A stretch of DNA of 64,000 bases, taken from assembly GCF_020921035.1 (NCBI RefSeq), contig NC_063156.1, positions 28,320,283 through 28,384,282 on the forward strand. The letters run 5' to 3'. The notes below the pieces were generated by a model. It ran no database searches and was not told the DNA's origin. It worked only from the letters and a program-made list of their open reading frames with translations. A program made the position numbers and the translations under genes. Source of the DNA: Rhodamnia argentea (taxonomy: Eukaryota > Streptophyta > Magnoliopsida > Myrtales > Myrtaceae). Position 1 is the first letter of the stretch. Every line of letters starts with the position of its first letter. This document shows, piece after piece, positions 6,801 to 60,984 of this stretch.

Positions 6801-7951
6801 TTGTGGAATCACTCAAGCCGCAAAGAGAGGTGGTGGGTTCAAAAAATTTCCTGTTCTACCCCGCATACATCCAAATTAACCTAAATGAGGTGTTTGACTG
6901 ACCATTGTGCAACAGGAAATAACAAGATTTTGTGCATCGTACCAAAACCAAAAATATAAGTACAATAGAAAGACACATTACATTCCCGTTGGCACAAACA
7001 TCCGGTTGTAGTGGAATCTGACATCATCCTGGGTCAGGTTACAACCTTCAAGCAGGTTAACAATATCAGTCTTCAAGGTGTGTCTCGACACTCCAAACAG
7101 CTTTGCATAAACTAGACCTGAGGGAGGGAGCACCAAGTATTAGCAGAATGAACCAAAAACACCAATCGGAAGCATTCCTAGGTTCAAAGTACGATGGAAT
7201 GATGCACAGGTGAGAGGAACAATGAACTTAAACATTCAACATCCACTTTCTCTCAGAGATTCATAGACAATGTGCCGGAAATGATTTTCAATAAACAAGC
7301 CAAATCTAGGAAAGTCTCCATGTGTTTATCAAAATAAACTAGGCCACTCGGCATTTTACCCTCGTGAATGCACTCTTTTCCCTTCTAGAAACCAAGGAAT
7401 TAAAACCACCAATTTCAGTGGGAGAACATGTTGGACTGATCAATACAAATCCAAACGCTTGGCCATTATCAAACCGCTGTCCAAATAAATGACAAGGCAA
7501 AATGGAAATCGTACGTGTGTAACTTGATCACTCCATCTCATCGACTTCTATAACAGAAAGCCAACAATTGCTCGAATATGCTCTGTCTCCGCTTCATTTT
7601 TCCGTTCAAACACTATGCGCGGAATGCCACTGACGCGATGGAGGCATAAACCCTAACACTAACGGTCGAAAGCAGAGAACAGAGAACCAACGACGAATCG
7701 AATGATCGAGACGTAATCGAAAATAAAAAGCACGTGAAGCCACCAGTGTTCGGAGGTCGAAGAAACGGATCGGCGGACGAGTCCTCCGGTTGGGCCGGCT
7801 GCTCCGGCTCCGTCGAGAAAGGTCGCGGCACGTCTCGGAGAAGCGGAGGGAGGCCTCGAGCAGTGGCGACGCTACTCCGAAGGGCGAAAGTCGACCTGAT
7901 TGCGTTCCGAAGCTGGCTCATGCTCGGCGTTTCGGCGAGGAATCGAATCAA
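3891..7951 (-). CDS. Mitochondrial-type protein with two RRM-like domains (6 exons, 236 aa)
   Basis: Exons 7951-7744, 7117-6982, 6700-6616, 6524-6477, 5096-4996 and 4023-3891 join in frame to 711 nt (236 aa plus TAG), every junction GT-AG. Residues 1-45 are rich in Arg, Ser and Ala and lack acidic residues after Glu7 until about Arg39-Asp40, ending at RPFSTE, a typical plant mitochondrial presequence with its cleavage region. Residues 70-145 (LVYAKLFGVSRHTLKTDI..., later GMMVQFPSRFEFDQAF) and 158-236 (ALLLQGIPFSATPNDVERFL..., later MATVSFPSQIEATNAF) each follow the beta-alpha-beta-beta-alpha-beta order of an RRM, but the aromatic RNP1 residues are largely lost. This indicates organelle RNA binding or a structural role such as in the mitoribosome; the exact role is inference. 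Homologues are ordinary single-copy plant genes to my knowledge. An in-frame ATG at residue 11 is an alternative start. Confidence 0.85.
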
Positions 7952-11681: not shown

Positions 11682-12505
11682 CGGCGCGTGTGGTAACACT
11701 ACGTTTTCAGAAATCAACTTCCGGCCATGAGTTGATCTTTTTAATTCTACTCCGGAAGTTGATTTCTAATCAAATGAATTTATTTGGTAACAGTTGAGAA
11801 TTTCTACTTATGAAACATTATTAGCACAAAATTTTCTATGAAAAATTATTATCGGCGGCTGAAATTTTTTTACTTCATTGTAAACTCTTTAAATTTCTTT
11901 AAAAAATAATTTTTATTATTAAAAATATTATTTACTTTTTAAAATTAAAACATTATTAATTATTTTCTACTCCCGCGGTTGGAGACGACGACTCGGCGGC
12001 GGCGGGCGGCGATGGTGGTCGACAGCATCCAACAAGCGGCGGCGGAGGTCGGCGGTAGCTTGGGGCGGTGGTTGACGGTTGGCGAAGGTAGTCAGCTGGG
12101 GCCGGCGATCGCGAGCGGCGATCGACGGAGGTTTGTAGTGGTCGTGGGCGGCGATCGGCGGTGGGCGGTAGGTAGTGGTGATTACGAGCGACGATGGGCG
12201 ATGGTTAGCGATGGGCAGCGGTGGAGGTCGACGGCGGGCGGTGGAGGTCGATGGCGGGCGGAGGCGAGCGTGGTCGAAAAGAGGGTGAGGGCATAATGAA
12301 AAGAGGTTGATGCGAGAAGCATTTCTTAAGTTGAGAAGCAATTTTTTTGAACTTTTTAAATTGAGGGAAAACAACTTCAAAAGTGAAAATTCACTTTAAA
12401 AGTAGAAATTTTTTTCAGAAGCAAAAAATTTTATCAAATGAATTTCTGCTCCATAAGTACTTTTAAAACAAAAATTCACTTTTAAAAGTGATATCATGCG
12501 CACCC
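11682..12505. mobile_element. PIF-Harbinger-type MITE with GC-rich core, about 824 bp
   Basis: The right end ATGATATCATGCGCACCC is followed by TTA (12506-12508); the left end CGGCGCGTGTGGTAACAC is preceded by TTA (11679-11681). The arms are AT-rich (repeated words such as AAAAGTGAAAATTCACTTT). The centre, 11975-12295, is a strongly GC-rich tract of GGCGGTGG-like units that can be read as open frames on both strands. A second copy of the same family lies at 60199-60984. The open frames in the core are low-complexity and are not called as genes. Confidence 0.65.
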
Positions 12506-19462: not shown

Positions 19463-20319
19463 AGAAAACTACGAGACATGTTGAATTAACGGATGAATAT
19501 TTCCAATATAACTAGACACAGATAAAAAAAAAACTATAATCTCTTGAATGATTCGGCCACGAAACACTAAGGAAATGTCGGTGTCTCGTTCTAGAGATAT
19601 TACTAAGAAGAAGCCTGAGTTCGAGCCAATCATCGGAGCGTCAAAAAGTACCCCATCCAAATCTAAAATCTTTGTGTGCCTAATGCGCGTACACCAGTAC
19701 CTCAACAGTCGATTAGACGAGACGTGAAAAAAAAAATATAATTTTGGGAAGATTTACCACCTAGCATTATTGCAAAGTTGTTACATTGGAGATCCTAGCG
19801 CATGGTTACCAGCACACAGTTACAAGTATTTTACCTTGCGGAAATGATTCTTACATTCGCGATGCGGCCATTTTTCACACTAGAAGCTGTTCTATTACAG
19901 TAAGATGCGCATGATCCGATCCGATGATCGAGATAGAGTGGAAAGTCGTGGAAAAGTGGGGTTTGCTCATAAAGGGACGCCCGTCCCAAATTCGTGTCGG
20001 AAAAAAAGTCTCCTTCCTCCCTTATCTTATCATCCATTTCCCTGCGCAATCAATGCGTCCTGTGAAATCCACTGCCCCGCCACTACAGCCATCTCTTGGG
20101 TCCCGGCCACGCCCCGCCTCACGTGACATGGGCCCGCCCCCGCATATTCTTGATTTTCCATAAATTACCGTCGATGTTAAAAATATTTTTCATCGACTAA
20201 TTATAGCAAGCGATACAAGCGGCTATTTTTTAAAAAAAGTATATTTCAATTCATTCATTTTTTTTTTCATTAAACGGACGGAGCTTGGTCCATCGAATCT
20301 CTTGGTATGGCGACAAAAG
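19463..20319. other. Intergenic, no gene seen
   Basis: AT-rich with a more GC-rich patch at 20040-20150. The open frames there overlap one another in several phases and show no domain. Bases 20165-20280 resemble the MITE-like tract at 13940-14045 (shared words around CAAGCGATACAAGCGG / CAAATGATACAAACAA). Confidence 0.4.
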
Positions 20320-20515
20320 GTCACCTCCTGTCTTTTGTGAGATCCAGAGAACGATTCAAATCACGAACGAATGTAGTTGTTTAGCTACGGCATGCCTCAC
20401 GGGGGGAAGCTCCTCGATCATTAGCATCTTATTAAGGCTGCAACGATTGATTCGCGAATGGTGCAGAGTAGCTATTAACTCAATCCGAACATCTCATAGT
20501 AGCCGTGTAACTTTA

Positions 20516-20810
20516 GGCTACGTTCGATCATATGGATTTCTAATTATGATAGCAAATCTAATCCAATGATTTTGCTATATGCGATTTACTGTTTGGTGAA
20601 TCCCAATAATAAAGCCGAATATTTTCACATCCAATTTTGTTCATTGTTTGGTATGAACAATATATTAGTGCGAATGAACCTAAAAGTTGCACAAAAGGAG
20701 ATGGTAAATTGGTAAGAGTCTTTCACGACACTCTTGCTTACTTAATATTTGAATTTTAATACAATTTTAATTTTATTAATTTAAAAAACTTGTTATTAGA
20801 AAAAATAACT
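20516..20810. mobile_element. Truncated Tourist-type MITE in unit A
   Basis: The left end GGCTACGTTCGATCATATGG follows TTA at 20513-20515. It matches the element at 24582-26687 in unit B, but the right end is missing here. The homology stops at about 20815, where unit A passes straight to sequence found at about 26922 in unit B. Confidence 0.55.
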
Positions 20811-21646
20811 TCTACATTAGAGAAGGATTGCTTAGTTTTAGCATTAGAGTTAGGGTTAAATATCACAAAGAAGTCAAACTGGTATATCTGCGATAAATTT
20901 ACTTAAACCAAGTTATTCGATTTATAAAGCCTAATGATCGAAAGATTGTTACTCTTCCTTCTTTAAAAGTACATGTAAACATATAGATTTACCTTTTTGC
21001 TTGTTAAGTCAACTGAGTTATTATCTTGCATTTCAAACGGGTGTTCAAATTGAGCCACCTTCATTATGAGTCGCTCGGGGACCGGAAGGTTCGGGATCAC
21101 TCAGCCCGTGCCTGCAAGCCCCACCAAAACGATGGCAATCGGGAGGTCCTTCCGCACGAGTAGTGCTGCCACTACACAACACCGCACGAAAACCATTCAG
21201 ATGATCGTTCAATGCGCGGATTTAATCATTGTGATCTCGCGTGACAAAATGATTGGTCTCTCCACCAAGGGCGAATCGCCTTTGAAGTGGACCCCGGGGG
21301 GACTTTAGGATGGCCCACGGTCGGCACGGGGCAATAGCGCGTACCGAGACAAAACCTTCCGTGACATATTAAGTCCCCTGTTTTCGTATCAGGTCGTACG
21401 TACGTTCCCCGTGATTAGCGAGGCGGACTCATCTCTTTCCTCAAGTAGAAACCGCCCGAGTTGTTCCCCAACGCCAAACTCCATCTGGGGACGGTTCTCT
21501 CTCTCTGACTCTGACTCTGACCACCATAAGTTCCGTACAAGCCACCTCCCACGTCCCATTTCTCTCCCACCCATAGATTCCTCCTCCTCCTCCTTCTTCA
21601 TCTTCTTCTTCACGAGGTCAAGATTCAAGAACAAGTTCTTGCGACA

Positions 21647-23190
21647 ATGGAAATGGCGAGTGGAGCAGCGACTGGGTTGGGCTTGTTGGAGTGGGAGTGG
21701 GAGTTCGACATGGAGCACCTGGGGTGGATGGTGGACTTCCTCAAGGGGATGGTGAAGCCGCTGATGGCGCTCGCGGTGGTCCTCATGGCGGTTGCCCTTT
21801 CCTACGCCCAGAGGCTCCGCCTGGAGCGAGAGATGCTTTACGCCATCTTCAGGGCTTTCCTTCAGCTCTCCGTCATTGGCTTCGTCCTCCAGTTCATCTT
21901 CAACAGCCAGAACGTCGCCTGGATCGTCCTTGCGTACCTTTTCATGGTATCTCCCCCTCTCCTCTTCGTGCTTTTGGCATTTCCGGTTTATGTTTCGGAT
22001 ACAGAGTTTAGCAGAGAGAGATGCAGAGCATGTTTCTGCTTTCTTGGTTTCTTGTTGCTTCCACTAGCGACTTCATCTGAAAAATTTACCCTTTTTTGCA
22101 TTCATGACCTTAATGATCTTGGAGTGAGATATAAGATAATGAATGTCTCAAAAAAGTTTAGCTTCCCCTGTTTTCTTGATTTTCTCCAGCCTCAGCTAAT
22201 GTCTTTCACTAAAATTAGCTGGAAACCGGAGAAAATGTTCCTTCCTTTTCTTTCCCTTTCTCAAATTCAAATTCAATTTTCAGACAAGTTATCCTCTCTA
22301 TTTGTTCAGTTTCCAGAGAAAGAGATACAGAGCAATATGCCTGAGACATGTTGACTGGTTTTGGTTGAGTAATTGTCTTAGCATCCGACCTCCTTCCTTG
22401 ATGAGAATATAGGCTCTTTCGGTTGTTTTAGGCTCAAGTTCTTGGCCGTCATTTGTTTACGTTAATCCTTTCGTTGACTTTGATTATTCAATCCTTTTAG
22501 GTCTCGGTTGCCGGCTACACGGCCGGTCAACGTGCCAAGCATGTTCCTCACGGCAAGTACATAGCTGGAGCCTCGATCCTCGCCGGAACCGCGGTGACTT
22601 TGTTCTTGCTCGTCCTGCTCAATGTGTTCCCCTTCACTCCTCGGTACATCATCCCCGTCGCGGGGATGATGGTGGGAAATGCAATGACGGTCACTGGTGT
22701 CACCATGAAAAGACTTCGGGATGATATCAGGACCCAAATGAACCTGGTAAGTCTTGATTTCAACCCGCTAATGTTCCGCAATCCGTGAACAGAAGGCCAC
22801 TTTTGATTTTAACAGAATGGAATATGGACGTCCAAGTCCTGAAATTTATGTGAATTTGTAATCTGTCTGTTGCAGGTGGAGACTGCATTGGCTCTCGGCG
22901 CAACCCCGCGCCAAGCGACATTCCAGCAAGTGAAGAGGGCATTGGTCATCGCACTCTCCCCGGTGATCGACAATGCGAAAACCGTGGGCCTCATCTCGCT
23001 CCCGGGCGCGATGACGGGCCTGATAATGGGAGGGGCTTCTCCGATCGAAGCCATCCAGCTGCAGATTGTGGTGATGAACATGCTGATCGGCGCGTCCACC
23101 GTCAGCAGCATCATGTCCACGTACCTGTGTTGGCCGGGATTCTTCACCCAGGCTTATCAGTTGGAAGCCAAGGTGTTCTCCTCAGAGTGA
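21647..23190 (+). CDS. ALS3: ALS3-like UPF0014/FetB-family membrane protein, copy 1
   Basis: Three exons, 21647-21946, 22501-22746 and 22876-23190, all joined in phase 0, give 286 aa. The protein is an all-helical membrane protein of the UPF0014 (bacterial FetB/YbbM) family. Arabidopsis ALS3, the founding plant member (about 270 aa), pairs with the nucleotide-binding subunit STAR1 at the tonoplast/plasma membrane and is needed for aluminium tolerance and root phosphate responses. Diagnostic stretches are VGNAMTVTGVTMKRLRDDI (residues about 158-176), ALALGATPRQA (186-196), SPVIDNAKTVGLISLPGAMT and GASPIEAIQLQIVVMN. About seven hydrophobic helices begin after residue 35. The start is the ATG following the conserved 5' leader; a second Met lies two codons on. 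All conserved motifs are intact and there are no premature stops, so it should be functional. Copy 2 differs at 8 residues. Confidence 0.95.
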
Positions 23191-24387
23191 CGTTCGATTC
23201 GAGCGTCTGTCCACAAAATAACCCTAGCGCAACTCGAAACCGAGACACGAAAGGGATTAAGGAGGACTTCAGGAGATGCACTACAGAAATTGTAGAACTT
23301 CATTTTTTTTGCACCATATTGGGTTATCAATCATTAGTCGAATGAGAAGCTTTTGATATTTTTGGTTGATTGCTTGCTGAGAATCAACCTCCTATGTTGC
23401 TCATTGGCTTCACACAACACAATCACAATTGGTCTCGACAAACAGCAAAATGCAGCAGGAAAATACAAGAGCGACTGGAAGTTTTGACGAATTAAGCAGA
23501 TGTTTAATCTCCAAACCGTCCGCAACCGAGTCTGCTTTCTGTTTTTCCTTTAGAAACGGGTCGATTCGGCTTTAGGCAAGTATGTTGGACTCATGGTTTT
23601 TAGTTTGTAGAGAGATTGTTCTGGGGATCCTAAAAACTGTTCCTATGGAGCACATTCTCCGCCCTTTTCGGATTAATCATGGCTGTGTCGGACAATGATA
23701 CGATCCGGCCACAGCATCCCCTACAATGACAAGAAGTCTAATCACAACACACTACTTGAAGACCAGCTGCTGCAACGAATGCATCGTGGACCGATTTCAA
23801 TTCCGTTCCCGAAGAAGTTGGGCTTCTGTGATGCTCTGAAAGGAATGTAACAATCAAATGGTATGTACTTGTATCCCCCAAGTCAGGTTTCAGGAAATAA
23901 CAGGCATGCTTTGGCATAAACGATGTTTAAGATCAGCTAATACCCGACTCCGTCTGCATCGGTACGTTTCTTTCTCTAACTGGTTCGTCGTCGCGCCATG
24001 CGCTTGAAGGACTGAACACAGGCTTCCGCTCAATGGAGAAGAGATAGAACTACGGCACAGACGGACGGTAAGAAATGGCGGCATTCTCGACGGAGACACA
24101 TTCACACATCAACCGAAGGTGTGCCCTCCCTGGAATCTGAAAATTGATCCCCCGAAAAGAAGACGTGATTGCACATCACAGATGAACAAGTGTAGTTGTC
24201 GAGTTCGAGCAAATGCAGGTCTAACGCCACAAGATGTCATTGGCCTAAGCACTAAAGGATACATCGTCGTCGCGGGATCCAAATTAAGCAGAATGATTTG
24301 GTATACAAAAGTAAAACCTCGGCCGTCAAAACATATTGTATACCAAATCTTGCAATTGAGTTCAGGTCATAGTACTAATGGAGGATC
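23191..24387. other. 3' flank of ALS3 copy 1
   Basis: Homologous to 29883-31147 downstream of copy 2. No gene is supported; the small frames (for example 23890-24105 minus) have no domain. It ends at the duplication joint. Confidence 0.6.
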
Positions 24388-24581
24388 ACCCCGTCTTTCT
24401 TGAGATCAAGAGCATGATCCAAATCACGACCGAATGTAGTTGTTTAGCTATGGCACGTCTCAAGCGGGGAAACTTTTCGATCGTTAGCATCTTATTTGCC
24501 AATCTCGGGCATTCATATCGCAAATGATGCAGAGTAACTGTTAATTCAATCTAAACATCTCATAGTAGTAGTGCACCCCTA

Positions 24582-26687
24582 GGTTACATTTGGTAGTCTG
24601 GAATTCTAGCTATGATAGGATATATAATCCAATAATTTTGATCTATCCGATTCACTATTTGGTGAATCATAATAATAAGGCGGGATATTTTCACATCCAA
24701 TTTTATCCATTATTTAGTATGAACAACATATTAGTGTGAACGAACTTAAAAGTTGCACAAACGGAGATGGTTAGAGTCTTTCATGACACTCTTGCGGGTT
24801 TTTTTTCCAAAATAATTTTAAAAAAATATATTTACAAAAATATTTTTTAAAAATAAATATTTACTGATTTGGGCCTCACTCAGCAGTTGGGCTACCGAGC
24901 AAGGCAGACACCCGACCCACGTTTTTGTTGTTGTAAATTTCGCATTTTTTTTAATTATTGATACTTAGAATATTTATTTTATTTATAATTTTTTTTCTTG
25001 TGAAGCTTATATTTATAACATTATTAGCAATAATTAATGTAAATATTTATTAAGATCTATAATTAATAAATAATGTTGTGATATAATGTAATATAGCCGC
25101 AGGAATATGTTGGAAACCGCAATAATAGATAGATGGGAAACCGTAGCAAAAGAGTTAAAAACCGCATGGAAAGATTAAAAACCACAGCAAAAGAGTGGAA
25201 ACGAGTAAAGAAATGACAAAACTTTGGAAGAACATATCTCATCGCTCGGGCGTCCGTTTGAGACGATTTTTTTTTATTTCACGTAATTTTTCGAGACGAA
25301 TCCATTGGCAAATTGCCGTAGGTGGTTTGACCCGGCTTTTTCCCCCAAAAATGCCGTTTTCCTTGTCAATTTTGCATTTTCTCCCTTCGGTGCTACTTCT
25401 CGATATCGAACGAACCGTCCTTTCCCTCTTTCCCCAAACAAATTCGGTCGGCTAAAATATTGAAATAGGAAAGAGGAAAATGAAGGTTCGTTCGATATCA
25501 AGAAGTAGCATCGAAGGGAGAAAATGCAAAATTGACAAGGAAAACGGCATTTTTTGGGGAAAAAGCCGAGTACGGCAGTTTGCCAATGGATTCGTCTCGA
25601 AAAATTACATGAAATAAAAAAAAAATTCGTCTTAAACGGATGCCCGAGCGATGAGATATGCTCTTCCAAAGTTTTGCCCTTTCTTTATTTGTTTCCACTC
25701 TTTTGTTGCGGTTTTTAATCTTTCCATGCGGTTTTTAACTCTTTTGATGCGGTTTCCCATCTATCTATTACTGCGGTTTCCAACATATTCCTGCGGCTAT
25801 ATTACAATATATCACAACATTATTTATTAATTATAGATCTTAATAAATATTTACATTAATTATTACTAATAATGTTATAAATATAAGCTTCACAAGAAAA
25901 AAAAATATAAATAAAATAAATATTCTAAGTATCAATAATTAAAAAAATACGAAATTTACAAAAAAAAAAAAAAACGCGGGCCAGGTGTCTGCCTTGCTCG
26001 TAAGTGGGCCCGCCGAGCAAGGGGTTGGGGTGGACCCAGCCCCTGGCTCGGCAACTCAACCGCCGAGCGAGGCCCAAATCCGTAAATATTTATTTTTAAA
26101 AAATATTTTTATAAATATTTTTTAAAAAAATTATTTTGGAAAAAAAAAACCCCACTCTTGCCCACTTCATATTTATTGCTTATTTTTTTAATTATTTTCC
26201 TTCACTTTTTTTAATTATTTTTTTATTTACTTTTTCCCTTCCATCATTCTCTAACAAAATTTTATTAAATAGTAAACTATACTAATATTTCTAAAATACT
26301 AAAATACCTAAAATATGTAATAACCATATATATATAAATATTGTCTATATATATTGAATTTAGATTGTAAAAGCAAAGAAATATGAATAAAAATAGGAAT
26401 AAATAGTGAAGAAAATGTTGTTATTCTTTTTTTTTTAATAGTAGAATTCAAAATATTATTCATATTCTAATACAATTTTAATTTTATTAATTTAAGAAAT
26501 TTTTTTATTAAAAAAATGACTTTTACATGATGGATTTTAGAAATTCTATCCATCTTTATTCTACCTACCATATAAGATAATTTTATCTAGGCTATATCTC
26601 ATTTTATCCTGTCTTGAGTAGGCACCAAATATTGAATATGACAAATTTTATTCTTTTTTGAATTTTATCCAATTACCAAACGGAATC
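24582..26687. mobile_element. Tourist-type MITE, split by a palindromic insertion
   Basis: The left end GGTTACATTTGGTAGTCTGG (24582) and right end CCAATTACCAAACGGAATC (to 26687) are inverted termini. TTA follows the right end (26688-26690) and CTA precedes the left end. The element is interrupted by the 24796-26152 insertion. Its head matches the truncated copy at 20516 in unit A, so this MITE predates the duplication. Confidence 0.6.
24796..26152. mobile_element. Giant palindromic Mutator-like (MULE) foldback element, 1357 bp
   Basis: Two long inverted arms (about 24796-25430 and 25480-26152) end in GGGTTTTTTTTCC and GGAAAAAAAAAACCC and are separated by about 50-60 bp. They are almost perfect reverse complements apart from an extra GC-rich tract of about 50 bp in the right arm (around 26000-26050). 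Flanking 9-bp direct repeats CACTCTTGC lie at 24787-24795 and 26153-26161. Unit A keeps the empty site, with a single CACTCTTGC followed by TTACTTAATATTT at about 20729-20750. A 9-bp duplication with long termini is the Mutator-like signature. The mirror-image open frames at 25195-25455 (plus) and 25274-25669 (minus) are products of the palindrome, not genes. There is no transposase, so it is non-autonomous. A transcript through it would fold into a hairpin of about 600 bp. Confidence 0.85.
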
Positions 26688-26755
26688 TTAGGATAATGGC
26701 GAGATGAGTTAGGGCCGATTGCCGCACCTTCCCTTTCCATAATAATAATATTAAC

Positions 26756-26790
26756 AATAGTAGTAGTAGTAGTAATGATGATGATGATAA
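26756..26790. repeat. Trinucleotide microsatellite (TAG)n(ATG)n
   Basis: A compound run of about five TAG units followed by about four ATG units within unit B; it has no counterpart in unit A. Confidence 0.8.
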
Positions 26791-26964
26791 CCAGCAGTGA
26801 AATGAGGCATATGAACCGCGGGTTTTCTATGGCCCTTCAGAGGATCAAAACCCTACCGTTGAGTATGCCTTCCAATCTATTATTATAGTTAGATTTAGTT
26901 TTTTTATCCTAATTTCCTCATAGAAGGAATGGGTATACAATGATTGTTTAGTTTTAGCGCAAGA

Positions 26965-27490
26965 GTTAGGGTTAATATCATGAAGAAGTCAAATTGGTAC
27001 ATTTGTGATAAATTTACTTAAAAATAATTTTTAGGCCATAAAATTTGTCAAACCGATATGCACGGCACATTTATCATTGTTAGTTTTCATCAATTTTACC
27101 CTCAAATTGCTAAGGCATATGACATATGCCAATAATTGAGTTGACTTGATGAGTCCAAGTGAAAATCGGAGATGAACATAGATTTTCAGGCATATTTGAG
27201 TAGACATTCTACTTGTGGTGGAGCTTGGTTCATAAAGTCTAATGATTGGAAAATTGTCACTCTTCCTTCATTAGAAGTACAAGTGAACATACAGATATAC
27301 CCTTTTACTTGCCAGGTCAACCGAGTTATTACAATGTGTCATCCAGCTCAATAATTTCACGAGAAAATTTAGTGGAAGCTAACGGATGGTAAATGTGTCA
27401 AGTGTGTATCAGTTTGAGATTTTTAGTGATTCAAAATTAGTTTGTGATAAATTTATCGTAAATATATCGGTTTAAAATTTTTCGTGATAT
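26965..27490. mobile_element. Inverted-repeat element upstream of ALS3 copy 2
   Basis: The left arm (AATATCATGAAGAAGTCAAA, then GTACATTTGTGATAAATTTA) and right arm (GTTTGTGATAAATTTATCG, then TTTTTCGTGATATTAACC) are imperfect reverse complements. Part of the left arm is present in unit A (20870-20930), where the right arm is gone. Its ends resemble those of the element at 15630-16365. Confidence 0.45.
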
Positions 27491-28134
27491 TAACCTTTAG
27501 ATGAATGGCAAATTTCGGCTTCTCTTCATGCGAAATATATGCGAGGCTTACTCCAAGCTTCTTTTTATAAAACTAAACAGTTTACCTTCGGACCTTACTT
27601 GGAAAAAGCCCAATCTTGACCGAAAACATCATTCTACCATGAAGAACTCGATGTTTACTTATCTACTGAGACTTTGCTTGACTTTTTCTTTTATAAGTAA
27701 AAGGGTCGAGACGAAAGACACCAAATGTTCAAATCGAGACACACTCATTTCGCACCCCTCGTGACCCGAGGGTTCGTGATCGCAGAGCCCGTATCCGCGA
27801 CCCCACCGAAACGATAGCAATCGGGAAGTCAGTTCCGCACGAACAGTGCCGCCTCCGGGCAGCACCACACGAGCCATTCATATGTTGGCTCACGGCGAGA
27901 ATTGATCATGTGAATCTCGCGGGAAAAATTGATTGATCTCTCCACGTTGATGGACGGTGGACCCCACGCGCCATAGCGCGGACCAGGACAAAACCTTCCG
28001 TGACAATAACTCCCGGCTTTAGTATCAGGTCGTACGTAGTACGTTCCCGTAATGAGCGAGATGACTCATCTCTTTTCCTCGAGAAGAATCACCCCGAGTT
28101 GTTTCCCCAACGCCAAACTCCATCTGGGGACGGT

Positions 28135-28159
28135 TCTCTCTCTCTCTCTCTCTCTCTCT
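28135..28159. repeat. (TC)n microsatellite in the leader of ALS3 copy 2
   Basis: Twelve TC units lie about 130 bp before the start codon. The same place in copy 1 (about 21498-21511) has only a few TC units followed by a duplicated GACTCT motif. Confidence 0.85.
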
Positions 28160-28287
28160 GACTCTGACCACCATAAATTCCGTACAAGCCACCGCCCACG
28201 TCCCATGTCTCTCCCACCCATAGATTCCGGCTCCTCCTTCATCTTCTTCTTCACGAGGTCAAGATTCAAGAACAAGTTGTCGCGACG

Positions 28288-29882
28288 ATGGAAATTGCGA
28301 GTGGAGCAGCGACGGGGTTGGGCTTGTTGAAGTGGGAGTGGGAGTTCGACACGGAGCATCTGGGGTGGATGGTGGACTTCCTCAAGGGGATGCTGAAGCC
28401 GCTGATGGCGCTCGCGGTGGTCCTCATGGCGGTTGCCCTCTCCTACGCCCAGAGGCTCCGCCTGGAGCGAGAGATGCTTTACGCCATCTTCAGGGCTTTC
28501 CTTCAGCTCTCCGTCGTTGGCTTCGTCCTCCAGTTCATCTTCAACAGCCAGAACATCGCCTGGATCGTCCTCGCTTACCTTTTCATGGTATCTCCCCCTC
28601 TCCCGTTCGTGCTTTTGGCATTCCCGGTTTATGTTTCGACATGTAGTTTAGCAGAGAGAGATGCAGAACATGTGTCTGCCTTCTTGGTTTCTTGTTGCTT
28701 ACATTCGTGAGCTCTTCTGAAAAAAGTTTCCTTTTTCAATATGTAATTCATCAAAGCAAAGCATGCATGACCTTGATGATCTTGGAGCGAGATAAGATAA
28801 TGACTTTCTTACAATATTTTAGCTTCCCCTGTTTTCTGGATTTTCTCCAGCTTCAGCTAATGTCTTCACAAAAATTAGCTGGAAATTGGAGAAAATTGTT
28901 CCTTCCTTTTCTTTCCCTTTTTCAAATTCAATTTTCAGACAAGTTATCCTCTCTACTTGTTCACCTTCAGACTTCAGTCGATTGTACTTACAGCTTATCC
29001 AGAGAAAGCGATACAGAGCAATATGCCTGAGACATGTTGACTGGTTTTGGTTGTGTAATTGTCATAGGATTAGCATCCGACCTCCTTCCTTGACGAGAAT
29101 ATAGGCTCTTTCGGTTGTTTTAGGCTCAAGTTCTTGGCCGTCATTTGTTTACGTTAACCCTTTCGTTGACTTTGATTATTCAATCCTTTTAGGTCTCGGT
29201 TGCCGGATACACGGCCGGTCAACGCGCCAAACATGTTCCACACGGCAAATACATAGCCGGAGCCTCGATCCTCGCCGGAACCGCGGTGACTTTGTTCTTG
29301 CTCGTCCTGCTCAATGTGTTTCCCTTCACTCCTAGGTACATCATCCCCGTCGCGGGGATGATGGTGGGAAATGCAATGACGGTCACCGGTGTCACCATGA
29401 AAAGACTTCGGGATGATATCAGGACCCAAATGAACCTGGTAAGTCTTGATTTCAACCCGCTAATGTTCCGCAATCCGTGAACAAAAGGCCACTTTTGATT
29501 TTAACAGAATGGAATATGGACGTCCAAGTCCTGAAATTTATGTGAATTTGTAATCTGTCTGTTGCAGGTGGAGACTGCATTGGCTCTCGGCGCAACCCCG
29601 TGCCAAGCGACATTCCAACAAGTGAAGAGGGCATTGGTCATCGCGCTCTCCCCGGTGATCGACAATGCGAAAACCGTGGGCCTCATCTCGCTTCCGGGCG
29701 CGATGACGGGCCTGATAATGGGAGGGGCTTCTCCGATCGAAGCCATCCAGCTGCAGATTGTGGTGATGAACATGCTGATCGGCGCGTCCACCGTCAGCAG
29801 CATCATGTCCACGTACCTGTGTTGGCCGGGATTCTTCACCAAGGCTTATCAGTTGGAAGCCAAGGTCTTCTCCTCCGAGTGA
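28288..29882 (+). CDS. ALS3: ALS3-like UPF0014/FetB-family membrane protein, copy 2
   Basis: Exons 28288-28587, 29193-29438 and 29568-29882 match copy 1 in length and phase and encode 286 aa. Differences from copy 1 by eye are M3I, E15K, M22T, V36L, I77V, V90I, R194C and Q274K; exon 2 is identical at protein level. Six of the eight changes lie in exon 1, in the N-terminal region and first helices. R194C falls inside the otherwise conserved ALGATPRQA block, next to the loop expected to contact the partner ATPase, so it may matter functionally (inference). Splice sites, start and stop are intact, so this is an expressed-looking paralogue and not a pseudogene. The leader carries an expanded TC repeat, and a palindromic MULE sits about 2.1 kb upstream, giving scope for regulatory divergence. 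The role is the same as in copy 1: the transmembrane half of an ALS3-STAR1 type transporter. Confidence 0.95.
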
Positions 29883-30198
29883 TGTTTGATTCGAGCGTCT
29901 GTCCACAAAAATAACCCGAGTGCAACTCGAAACCGAGACACGAACGGGATTAAGGAGAACTTCAGAAGATGGATTACAGAAATTGTAGAACTTCATTTTT
30001 TTTTGCACCATATTGAGTTATCAATCATTAGTCAAGTGGGAAGCTTTTGACATTTTCGCTTTGATTGCTTGCTGAGAATCAACCTCCTATGTTGCTCGTT
30101 GGCTTCACACAACAAAATCACAATTGGTCTCGTAAAACAGCGAAATGCCGCAGGAAAATACAAGAGCGGCTGGAAGTTTTGATGAATAAAGCAGAGGT

Positions 30199-30345
30199 TT
30201 AACCTCCAAATCGTCTGCAACTGAGTATTCTTTCTGTTTTTCCTTAGAAACAGGTCGATTTGGATATAGGCATGTTTAACCTCCAAATCGTCTGCAACTG
30301 AGTCTTCTTTCTGTTTTTCCTTAGAAACGGGTCGATTCGGATATA
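30199..30345 (+). repeat. Short tandem duplication in unit B
   Basis: A stretch of about 85 bp containing TTTAACCTCCAAATCGTCTG and TTTTTCCTTAGAAAC occurs twice in a row (about 30197-30270 and 30276-30345). Unit A has it once (about 23505-23565), so the event followed the ALS3 duplication. Confidence 0.8.
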
Positions 30346-31154
30346 AGTAAGTATGTTGGACTCACGGTTTTTAGTTTGTAGAGAGATTGTTCTGGGGATC
30401 CTAAAAACTGTTCTTATGGTGCACATTTTCTGCCCTTTTTGGATTAATCATGGCTGTGCTCGGACAATCCGGCATCAGCCCCTACAGCGATAAGAAGTCT
30501 AAACACAACACACTACTCGAAGACATGTTGCTGCAACGAATGCATCGTGGATCAATTTCAATTCCGTTCCCGAAGCGGTCGGGGCTTCTGTGATGCTTCG
30601 AAAGGAATGTAAGATTCAAATGGTATGTACATGTATCCCCCAAGTCATGTTTCAGGAAATAACAGGGATGCTTTGGCATAAGCGATGTCTAGGATCAACT
30701 AATACCCGACTCCGTCTGCATTGGTTTCTTTCTCTACTGGTTTGTTGTGCCTCGAAGAACCGAACATGGGCTTCCGCTCAATGGAGAAGAGACAGAACTG
30801 TGAAACGACCGGACGGTAAGAAATGGCAGCGTTCTTGAGAGAGAGAGACACACACACACATTCACACATCGATCGAAGGTGTGCACTCCCTGGAATCTGA
30901 AAATTGATCGCCGAAAACAAGACATGATTGCGCATCACAGATGAATATGTGTGGATGTCGAGTTCGAGCAAATGCAGGTCTAACGCCACAAGATGTCATT
31001 GGCCTAAGCACTAAAAGATACATCGTCGTCGCGGGATCGAAATTAAGCAAAATGATTCGGTACACAAAAGTAAAACCTCGGCCATCAAAACATATTGTAT
31101 ACCAAATCTTGCAATTGAGTTTCAGGTCATAGTACTAATGGAGGATCATCGTCC

Positions 31155-44767: not shown

Positions 44768-45209
44768 AGGGAAAAAGCCACCAAAAATCCTAAACTATGC
44801 CCGTTGTGACACATTTACCCCAAACTTTTATTTGTGACACAAAAAACTCTAAACTTGTACGCATGTGACACATTTACCCCAAACTTGTACTTGTGTGACA
44901 CATTTATCCCAAACTTTTTGTTGTGACACTAAAAACTCCAAACTTATATTCATGTGACACATTTACCTCAAATTTTTGAAGTAAATGTGTCGCACGAATA
45001 TAAGTTTAGGAATTTTGATGTCATAAAAAAATATTTTGGGATAAATATGTCACACGGGTATAAGTTTAGGGTTTTCAATGTCACAAGAAAAAGTTTGGGG
45101 TAAATGTGTCACATGAGTAAAAGTTTGGGATTTTTGGTGTCACAAAAAAAAGTTTAGGGTAAATGTGTCACAATTGGCATAGTTCAGGGTTTTCGGTGGT
45201 TTTTTTCCC
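44768..45209. repeat. Palindromic array of GTGACACATTTACCCC-type units
   Basis: The left half repeats a phrase of roughly 35-40 bp (GTGACACATTTACCCCAAAC, then aaaaactc(t/c)aaacttgta) about four times. The right half is its reverse complement (GTTTAGGGTAAATGTGTCAC, GTCACAAAAAAAAGTTTAGG), with the axis near 44985. The ends read GGGAAAAAGCCACC and GGTGGTTTTTTTCCC. It is a foldback element built from tandem units, non-coding. Confidence 0.75.
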
Positions 45210-60198: not shown

Positions 60199-60984
60199 GG
60201 GTGCGCATATTAACACTTTTGAAAGTGAATTTCTATTCCATAATTGCTTCTAGAGCAGAAATTCGTTTGGTAATGCAACTTCTAAAGCAAAAATCCATTT
60301 GGTGAAAATTTTTACTTTTAAAAGAAATTTCTACTTCTAAAGTGAATTTTTACTTCTGAAGTTTTTTCCCAAATTTAAAAAATTAAAAAGAATTGTTTCT
60401 CAACTCAAGAAGTATTTCTCGCCTCACCCTATTTTCATAATGTCTCTCGCCCAATCACGCCTCCATCGTCACCGTCCATCGCCGCCAACCGCCGAACTCT
60501 CCAACCGCAATAGAACACCGCCGATCACCATCGCCCATAGCCCACCGCCGACCCTCGCCCGCCCGGTGCCCCCCACCGCCGCTGGCAGGCCCCCAACCTG
60601 CGCCGACCACCGCCTCTAACCTCCGTCGGGCATTGTCGCCCCCCACCGCCAACCGTTGCTGCCCACAACCGTTGTCGGCCGCCATCGTTGCCGTTGAGTC
60701 GCCATATCCAGCCACCGAAGTAAAAAATAAATAATAACTTTTTATTTTTAAAAACTTAATAATTTTTTTAATAATAAAAATATTTTTTAAAGAAATTTAA
60801 AAAAAAAAATGAAGTAGAAACTTTTCAACGCCGACAATAATTCGTCGTATAAGATTTTGTGCGTATAATGTTTCGGAAGTAGTTATTAAATGAATTTCTC
60901 CGATAAATAATCAACTTCTGCTTATGAATAAAAATAGAAAAATCAACTTCTACTTCGGAAGCAAAAGTGTTGCCATGCACGCCC
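60199..60984. mobile_element. PIF-Harbinger-type MITE with GC-rich core, about 786 bp
   Basis: The ends GGGTGCGCATATTAACAC and GTGTTGCCATGCACGCCC are inverted and flanked by TAA (60196-60198 and 60985-60987), the family target duplication. The AT-rich arms share AACTTCTAAAGCAAAAATCC-like words with the element at 11682-12505, which is in the opposite orientation. The core at 60445-60715 is GC-rich (CACCGCC units). Confidence 0.8.

Follow-up and report, generated by a model that had tools for sequence, protein, structure and literature searches.

Two tandem ALS3-like genes in Rhodamnia argentea are separated by a long inverted repeat, which raises the questions of what this structure is, how it came to lie between the two genes and whether it might act on either of them. 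We followed these questions through the window, the whole 64,000-nt stretch of contig NC_063156.1 analysed here (positions 28,320,283 to 28,384,282 of the forward strand). The palindrome is very probably a non-autonomous fold-back MULE that inserted into CACTCTTGC of the second tandem unit after duplication of the ALS3-like gene.

In the tandem duplication, unit A measures 4,071 bp (20318-24388) and unit B 6,767 bp (24382-31148). Divergence between them is 16.8% for the upstream flank, 8.5% for the 3' region and 5.8% for the gene body. The gene of each unit matches UPF0014, and the name ALS3, adopted from an earlier sequence-only reading of this DNA, fits that family. The inverted repeat covers 24796-26152 (1,357 bp), and the ATG at 28288 confirms the earlier estimate that it stands about 2.1 kb upstream of ALS3 copy 2. 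The genes and the parts of the element are as follows.

21647..22354, + strand: initial coding segment of ALS3-like copy 1, inside an open frame (UPF0014 match)
28288..28710, + strand: initial coding segment of ALS3-like copy 2, inside an open frame (UPF0014 match)
24796..26152, no strand assigned: very probable non-autonomous fold-back MULE, with ends GGGTTTTTTTTCC... and ...GGAAAAAAAAAACCC
24796..25433, + strand: left arm, its inner limit set by the innermost repeat pair
25468..26152, - strand: right arm, with about 50 bp close to the outer end that are absent from the left arm
24796..24904, + strand: terminal module, common to both ends of the 10-kb relatives described below
25138..25196, + strand: degenerate 20-bp repeat of the left arm, present in about 2.9 units, with its mirror image in the right arm at 25697-25755

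The innermost arm sequences enclose a spacer of 34 nt. A global alignment of the two halves has 620 ungapped columns, of which 581 match and 39 do not (93.7% identity), and nine gaps, including one for the loop overhang; the right-arm excess of about 50 bp takes the form of three gaps close to the outer end. Thus, the inverted repeat proposed by the sequence-only reading stands at 24796-26152, but with this identity and number of gaps its arms are not "nearly perfect". Terminal inverted repeats of MULEs typically measure 100-500 bp according to the part of PMC3310237 that deals with them, and the long terminal repeats of this element conform to the MULE type. Its palindromic body is able to form a single hairpin, as in fold-back elements, and its length of 1,357 bp places it outside the MITEs, for which the relevant part of PMC12550479 gives 50-800 bp as typical. 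The longest frame of the element encodes 136 amino acids and had no match in a Pfam search, and an Rfam scan of the window at the gathering threshold returned no match.

The case for transposition begins with the sequences bordering the element and their counterparts in unit A.

24787..24795, + strand: left target-site duplication CACTCTTGC, perfect copy
26153..26161, + strand: right target-site duplication CACTCTTGC, perfect copy
20729..20737, + strand: single 9-mer CACTCTTGC in unit A, the empty site by paralogue comparison
24390..24795, + strand: left flank of unit B, whose homologue in unit A is 20327-20737
26162..26174, + strand: sequence directly to the right of the duplication, agreeing with unit A 20738-20750 at 10 of 13 positions

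That this 9-mer flanks the element on both sides and stands once in unit A at about 20729 had been noticed from the letters alone, and both observations proved accurate: with both strands searched, it is present exactly three times in the window. Shuffled windows held 0.24 copies on average and three copies in 0 of 100 cases, and identical 9-mers spaced 1,366 bp apart were found at 1 of 62,600 window positions. Target-site duplications of MULEs measure 9-11 bp, a range that includes the perfect 9-bp duplication seen here. The left flanks of the two units are 79.4% identical with gaps counted, and their alignment ends at the final base of the 9-mer in units A and B alike. To the right, the 10-of-13 match was equalled at 0.26% of 1,546 nearby positions. 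Local alignment of A and B over the first 40, 80, 120 or 200 bp right of the 9-mer did not exceed shuffles, and it became significant when 400 bp were taken. The earlier statement that unit A runs on into the right flank of the insertion is therefore borne out directly only for 20738-20750 against 26162-26174. Homology picks up again piecewise (A 20753/B 26464, A 20823/B 26939, A 20921/B 27229 and A 21042/B 27726), so that, beyond the element's right end, either B has acquired more insertions or A has suffered more deletions; several blocks beyond the 13-bp match are present in copy B alone. The empty site is supported, its left side well and its right side over a short distance. It backs the proposal that insertion followed the ALS3 duplication, with a right-flank match that is short (13 bp).

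One of the blocks particular to copy B is an AT-rich stretch of 285 bp (26174-26458) that is bordered on each side by a copy of TTCATATT (26166-26173 and 26459-26466). This block may be a second, separate insertion adjoining the element.

The element belongs to a dispersed family. A search of the genome (346.7 Mb in 74 contigs) gave at least 266 matches to it, and the matches listed fall in at least 40 distinct places, the window included; 28 of the 39 others were retrieved and 11 were not. Copy counts are lower bounds, with scoring of the best 40 of 412 candidates for the element, 150 of 474 for PF10551 and 40 of 382 for the end DNA. The ends of the copies are alike, reading GGGTTTTTTTCCAAAATAATTTT or a variant with CCAATTTAATTTT, and the end 23-mer had 81 genome matches at up to one mismatch, against 0 for a backward control. 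Flanking 9-mers agreed with at most one mismatch in 16 of 18 copies (window included) and, when left and right flanks were taken from different copies, in 2 of 306 pairings, none of which was free of mismatches. Among the 18, nine copies had best flanking 9-mers without a mismatch, seven with one, one with three and one with four; the loci L037 and L047 had no good 9-bp repeat. In this comparison, end positions were set by hand, with equal search freedom for true and mismatched pairings, and L032, L043 and L045, which match one end only, were left out. Of the short loci L051-L058, three of eight gave results, namely L051, L052 and L057, which have perfect flanking 9-bp repeats and are additional to the 18; in L053-L056 one end was not found, and L058 was not included. 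The duplications include CACTCTTGC, CCCCTTTTG, GTCGATTGT and CATCATTGG and are unlike TA repeats. Other genomic copies with 9-bp duplications of their own, for which the sequence-only reading had suggested a search, thus exist.

Copies vary in completeness. A self-palindromic core was found in 13 of 20 copies (L031-L050, taken with wide flanks). The window element and L031 are whole palindromes, and other copies of this build have undergone losses. Some copies, for example L036, L039 and L040, have a right arm split by about 280 bp, and L046 and L048-L050 consist of a single core.

A link to a coding element came from a search with the right end, which led to a terminus on contig C4 about 4 kb from a MULE-domain match. 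The element there, C4:25677176-25687902, is 10,727 bp long and has near-identical ends, bordered by perfect 9-bp repeats; these ends are of the CCAATTTAATTTT variant that is seen also in small copies. Its frames match PF10551 (MULE; E 1.5e-17) and PF03108 (MuDR; E 2.8e-7), and another frame matches PF10536 (plant mobile domain; E 6.5e-53), so that the ends of the small copies are common to an element encoding a MULE-type transposase. Together with the common ends and individual 9-bp duplications of the small copies, the 10.7-kb copy supports the original classification as a MULE. A second relative, C1:6951614-6961699 (10,086 bp), is flanked by 9-mers with two differences between them. It matches PF10551 with one internal stop and also PF10536, and its PF03108 match falls under the curated cut-off. 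The two longest blocks common to the C1 and C4 copies are 93.5% and 92.2% identical. The frames of both copies are broken into several pieces, which were taken unmended; because their coding is split in this way, the source of transposase is only putative. The search with the end 23-mer had pointed to a coding partner at C1:6953088, a candidate that was rejected: the end at that position is part of a 182-bp palindrome within the C1 element, whose true terminus is C1:6951614.

Matches in one or both of the C4 and C1 copies cover 776 of the window element's 1,357 bases at E 1e-8 and 1,042 at relaxed settings, and the common stretches are about 70-94% identical. The terminal module at the left end of the window element is 80.7% identical to that of the C4 copy; for the right-end version the values are 91.5% and 89.6%. 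At relaxed settings, element bases 394-534, 788-876 and 929-1002 had no match in either 10-kb copy. With regard to Pack-MULEs, which carry a captured fragment of a host gene, the observations are that bases 394-534 are unmatched in both of these copies and that the longest frame lacks a Pfam match.

Both 10-kb MULEs hold matches to the plant mobile domain (PMD) in their interior (L060:1464-2411 and L060:803-1132 in the C4 copy; L059:6314-6736 in the C1 copy). They also carry palindromes of about 170-180 bp built from a like terminal module (L059:389-570, 182 bp; L060:6682-6850 and 7132-7306), all of them situated upstream of the transposase frame; the C4 copy has two.

With the family at hand, the symmetry of the window element could be set against that of its relatives, using 44 arm cores from 29 copies after two short matches had been dropped. 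Arms differ by 10.1-10.3% on average between copies and by about 8.2% within copies (15 pairs, including a pair of direct copies in L047). Over the compared core, the difference between the window arms is 6.4%, and on average they differ from other copies by 8.6% and 9.0%. A later ranking left out two rows of fewer than 200 bases, among them the 159-base row of L042, which had seemed nearest to both window arms. In this ranking the partner and the arms of other copies nearly tie: for the left window arm, the partner is fifth of 41, with four others nearer (the best at 5.8%), and for the right arm it is second of 41, with one other equally near at 6.4%. Arms are mutually nearest in 4 of 13 copies, or in 3 of 14 with the short rows kept. 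In the tree, the window arms do not group, yet their grouping was not rejected (p-AU 0.472); the two arms of L036 group strongly, and so do those of L044. The same core stretch is missing from both L044 arms and from one L033 arm. Exchange between arms may have taken place in L044, L036 and L033.

The sequence-only reading took the symmetry of the window element as a sign of recent arrival or of gene conversion between its arms, neither of which the family supports, as 13 of 20 other copies are palindromic and foreign arms are about as close as the partner. For recent arrival, an additional objection is that divergence between arms and between paralogues is not separable. The arms differ by 6.3%, about as much as the gene bodies of units A and B (5.8%) and less than their 3' regions (8.5%) and upstream flanks (16.8%), and they give no clear insertion date. 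That conversion from arm to arm keeps the window element symmetrical appears unlikely to us: the closer agreement of arms within than between copies, the smaller distance between the window arms than from them to other copies, the tree's tolerance of their grouping and the strong grouping in L044 and L036 all point towards conversion, but a foreign arm is nearer to the left window arm and another is as near to the right one, and mutual nearest arms are confined to the few copies given above. We read the symmetry in the window as mostly inherited.

On the preferred reading, the ALS3-like gene would first have been duplicated in tandem to give units A and B. A transposase from a relative of about 10 kb, its putative source, would have recognised GGGTTTTTTTCC-type ends and moved the element, presumably as a cut DNA intermediate, and insertion into CACTCTTGC of unit B would have duplicated those 9 bp. 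The palindromic body would have been handed down from earlier palindromic copies. Read-through from a promoter could then give rise to a long hairpin open to Dicer cutting.

Two other histories deserve consideration. Since fold-back repair of breaks can create long inverted repeats, the palindrome might have formed in place by inverted duplication rather than by transposition, and the strongly grouping arms of L036 and L044 look as if one arm had been duplicated or copied late. An origin in place is nevertheless extremely improbable, given the exact 9-bp repeats that border the element, the lone 9-mer in the paralogue and the dispersed copies, which have similar ends and 9-bp repeats of different sequence. 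Alternatively, the insertion might be older than the ALS3 duplication, with unit A having lost the element by a precise excision that left one 9-mer. The similar divergence of arms and gene bodies is what such a history would produce, and thus divergence alone does not make the insertion younger than the duplication; however, the upstream flanks of the units have diverged further than the arms, and precise excision of MULEs with restoration of a single 9-mer is rare. We therefore hold this sequence of events to be very unlikely, though not to the same degree as formation in place. Insertion of a fold-back MULE after the duplication best accounts for the locus, and the element is real, well bounded and ordinary in kind.

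Whether the element influences its neighbour is a separate matter. As RNA, it is predicted to form a single long hairpin (-912.4 kcal/mol, without a shuffle control at such length). According to the part of the review PMC12595863 on inverted repeats near genes, about 486 of 634 such repeats in Arabidopsis yield 24-nt siRNAs, many of them derive from MuDR MITEs, and an upstream MITE alters the looping of a sunflower gene. By analogy, the element might be a working regulatory hairpin whose 21-24-nt small RNAs act on ALS3 copy 2 via methylation or chromatin looping, an interpretation that we put forward tentatively and consider possible but less likely than not. Across the family, C-to-T or G-to-A changes relative to the column majority amount to 80/650 at CHG, 152/1517 at CG and 114/2516 at CHH sites, compared with 85/6228 for A/T transitions. 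These counts are not independent, as the copies share descent; the family-wide excess is consistent with past methylation and would suit a source of small RNAs. The same count for the window arms gave CHG 5/31, CG 7/70, CHH 5/116 and A/T 0/291. In the window pair alone (CG 10/62, CHG 5/30, CHH 10/120), however, the excess at CG and CHG over CHH did not reach significance (p 0.09). A CG+CHG excess was also present in two of three control stretches from units A and B (p 0.0008 and 0.026). As evidence for the window copy, the methylation footprint is weak. A hairpin role is a plausible hypothesis.

A broader scenario, in which hairpin small RNAs from fold-back copies silence the PMD-bearing 10-kb MULEs in trans and the PMD serves in counter-silencing, seems to us quite improbable. 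Terminal and subterminal DNA of these MULEs would be present in inverted form in the hairpin transcripts, and such trans silencing would be a natural parallel to maize Mu killer. The level of identity in the stretches common to the window element and the 10-kb copies, in places as low as about 70%, argues against it. In the part of PMC5418596 concerned with these domains, a counter-silencing role of the PMD is called "tempting to speculate".

The nearest named kinds are fold-back MULEs, namely FARE and MuTAnT of plants and the nematode family Tm1. FARE elements of Arabidopsis, now classed as MULEs, resemble the window element in having long palindromic repeats at both ends, by the description of FARE1 in PMC4486113. 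The same paper presents MuTAnT of Medicago truncatula as a MULE family with long TIRs that form a fold-back, as here, with members of about 200 bp to more than 1.6 kb and with an autonomous relative; MuTAnT targets TA microsatellites, unlike the present family with its duplications. Tm1, a Mutator/Foldback family of Meloidogyne, likewise combines composite inverted repeats with mostly 9-bp duplications, and its TIR pairs average 93.15% identity, compared with 93.7% for the window arms (PMC3169594, in the part describing the family). It comes from animals, and its arrays of 13-15-bp units are variable, whereas each window arm has about 2.9 degenerate 20-bp units. Multiple-long-TIR MULEs (Ferguson and Jiang 2012, PMC3310237) are plant elements with repeated terminal sequence, as here, but their TIRs are mostly tandem in the part of that account bearing on them, whereas the window element is nearly all inverted repeat. 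Finally, the C4 and C1 relatives resemble PMD-carrying MULEs in having PMD matches inside the element. Fusions of PMD and MULE are described for grasses and Amborella in the corresponding part of PMC5418596.

The locus offers a filled and an empty site in a pair of tandem paralogues, and the family ties fold-back elements to a coding relative with near-identical ends; our general impression is that for fold-back elements such a relative is often missing. The locus also constitutes a natural test of whether a long inverted repeat 2.1 kb upstream alters the expression of one of two similar genes.

Two further repeats were observed in the window. A second palindromic element of 441 bp (44769-45209) has the ends GGGAAAAAGCCACC and GGGAAAAAAACCACC and runs of nine A on either side, which are weak evidence of a duplication because they are homopolymers. 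A dispersed repeat pair in opposite orientation joins 11804-12000 with 60690-60882 and 12283-12450 with 60286-60452; these stretches are 80-82% identical, and the middle parts of the pair do not align.
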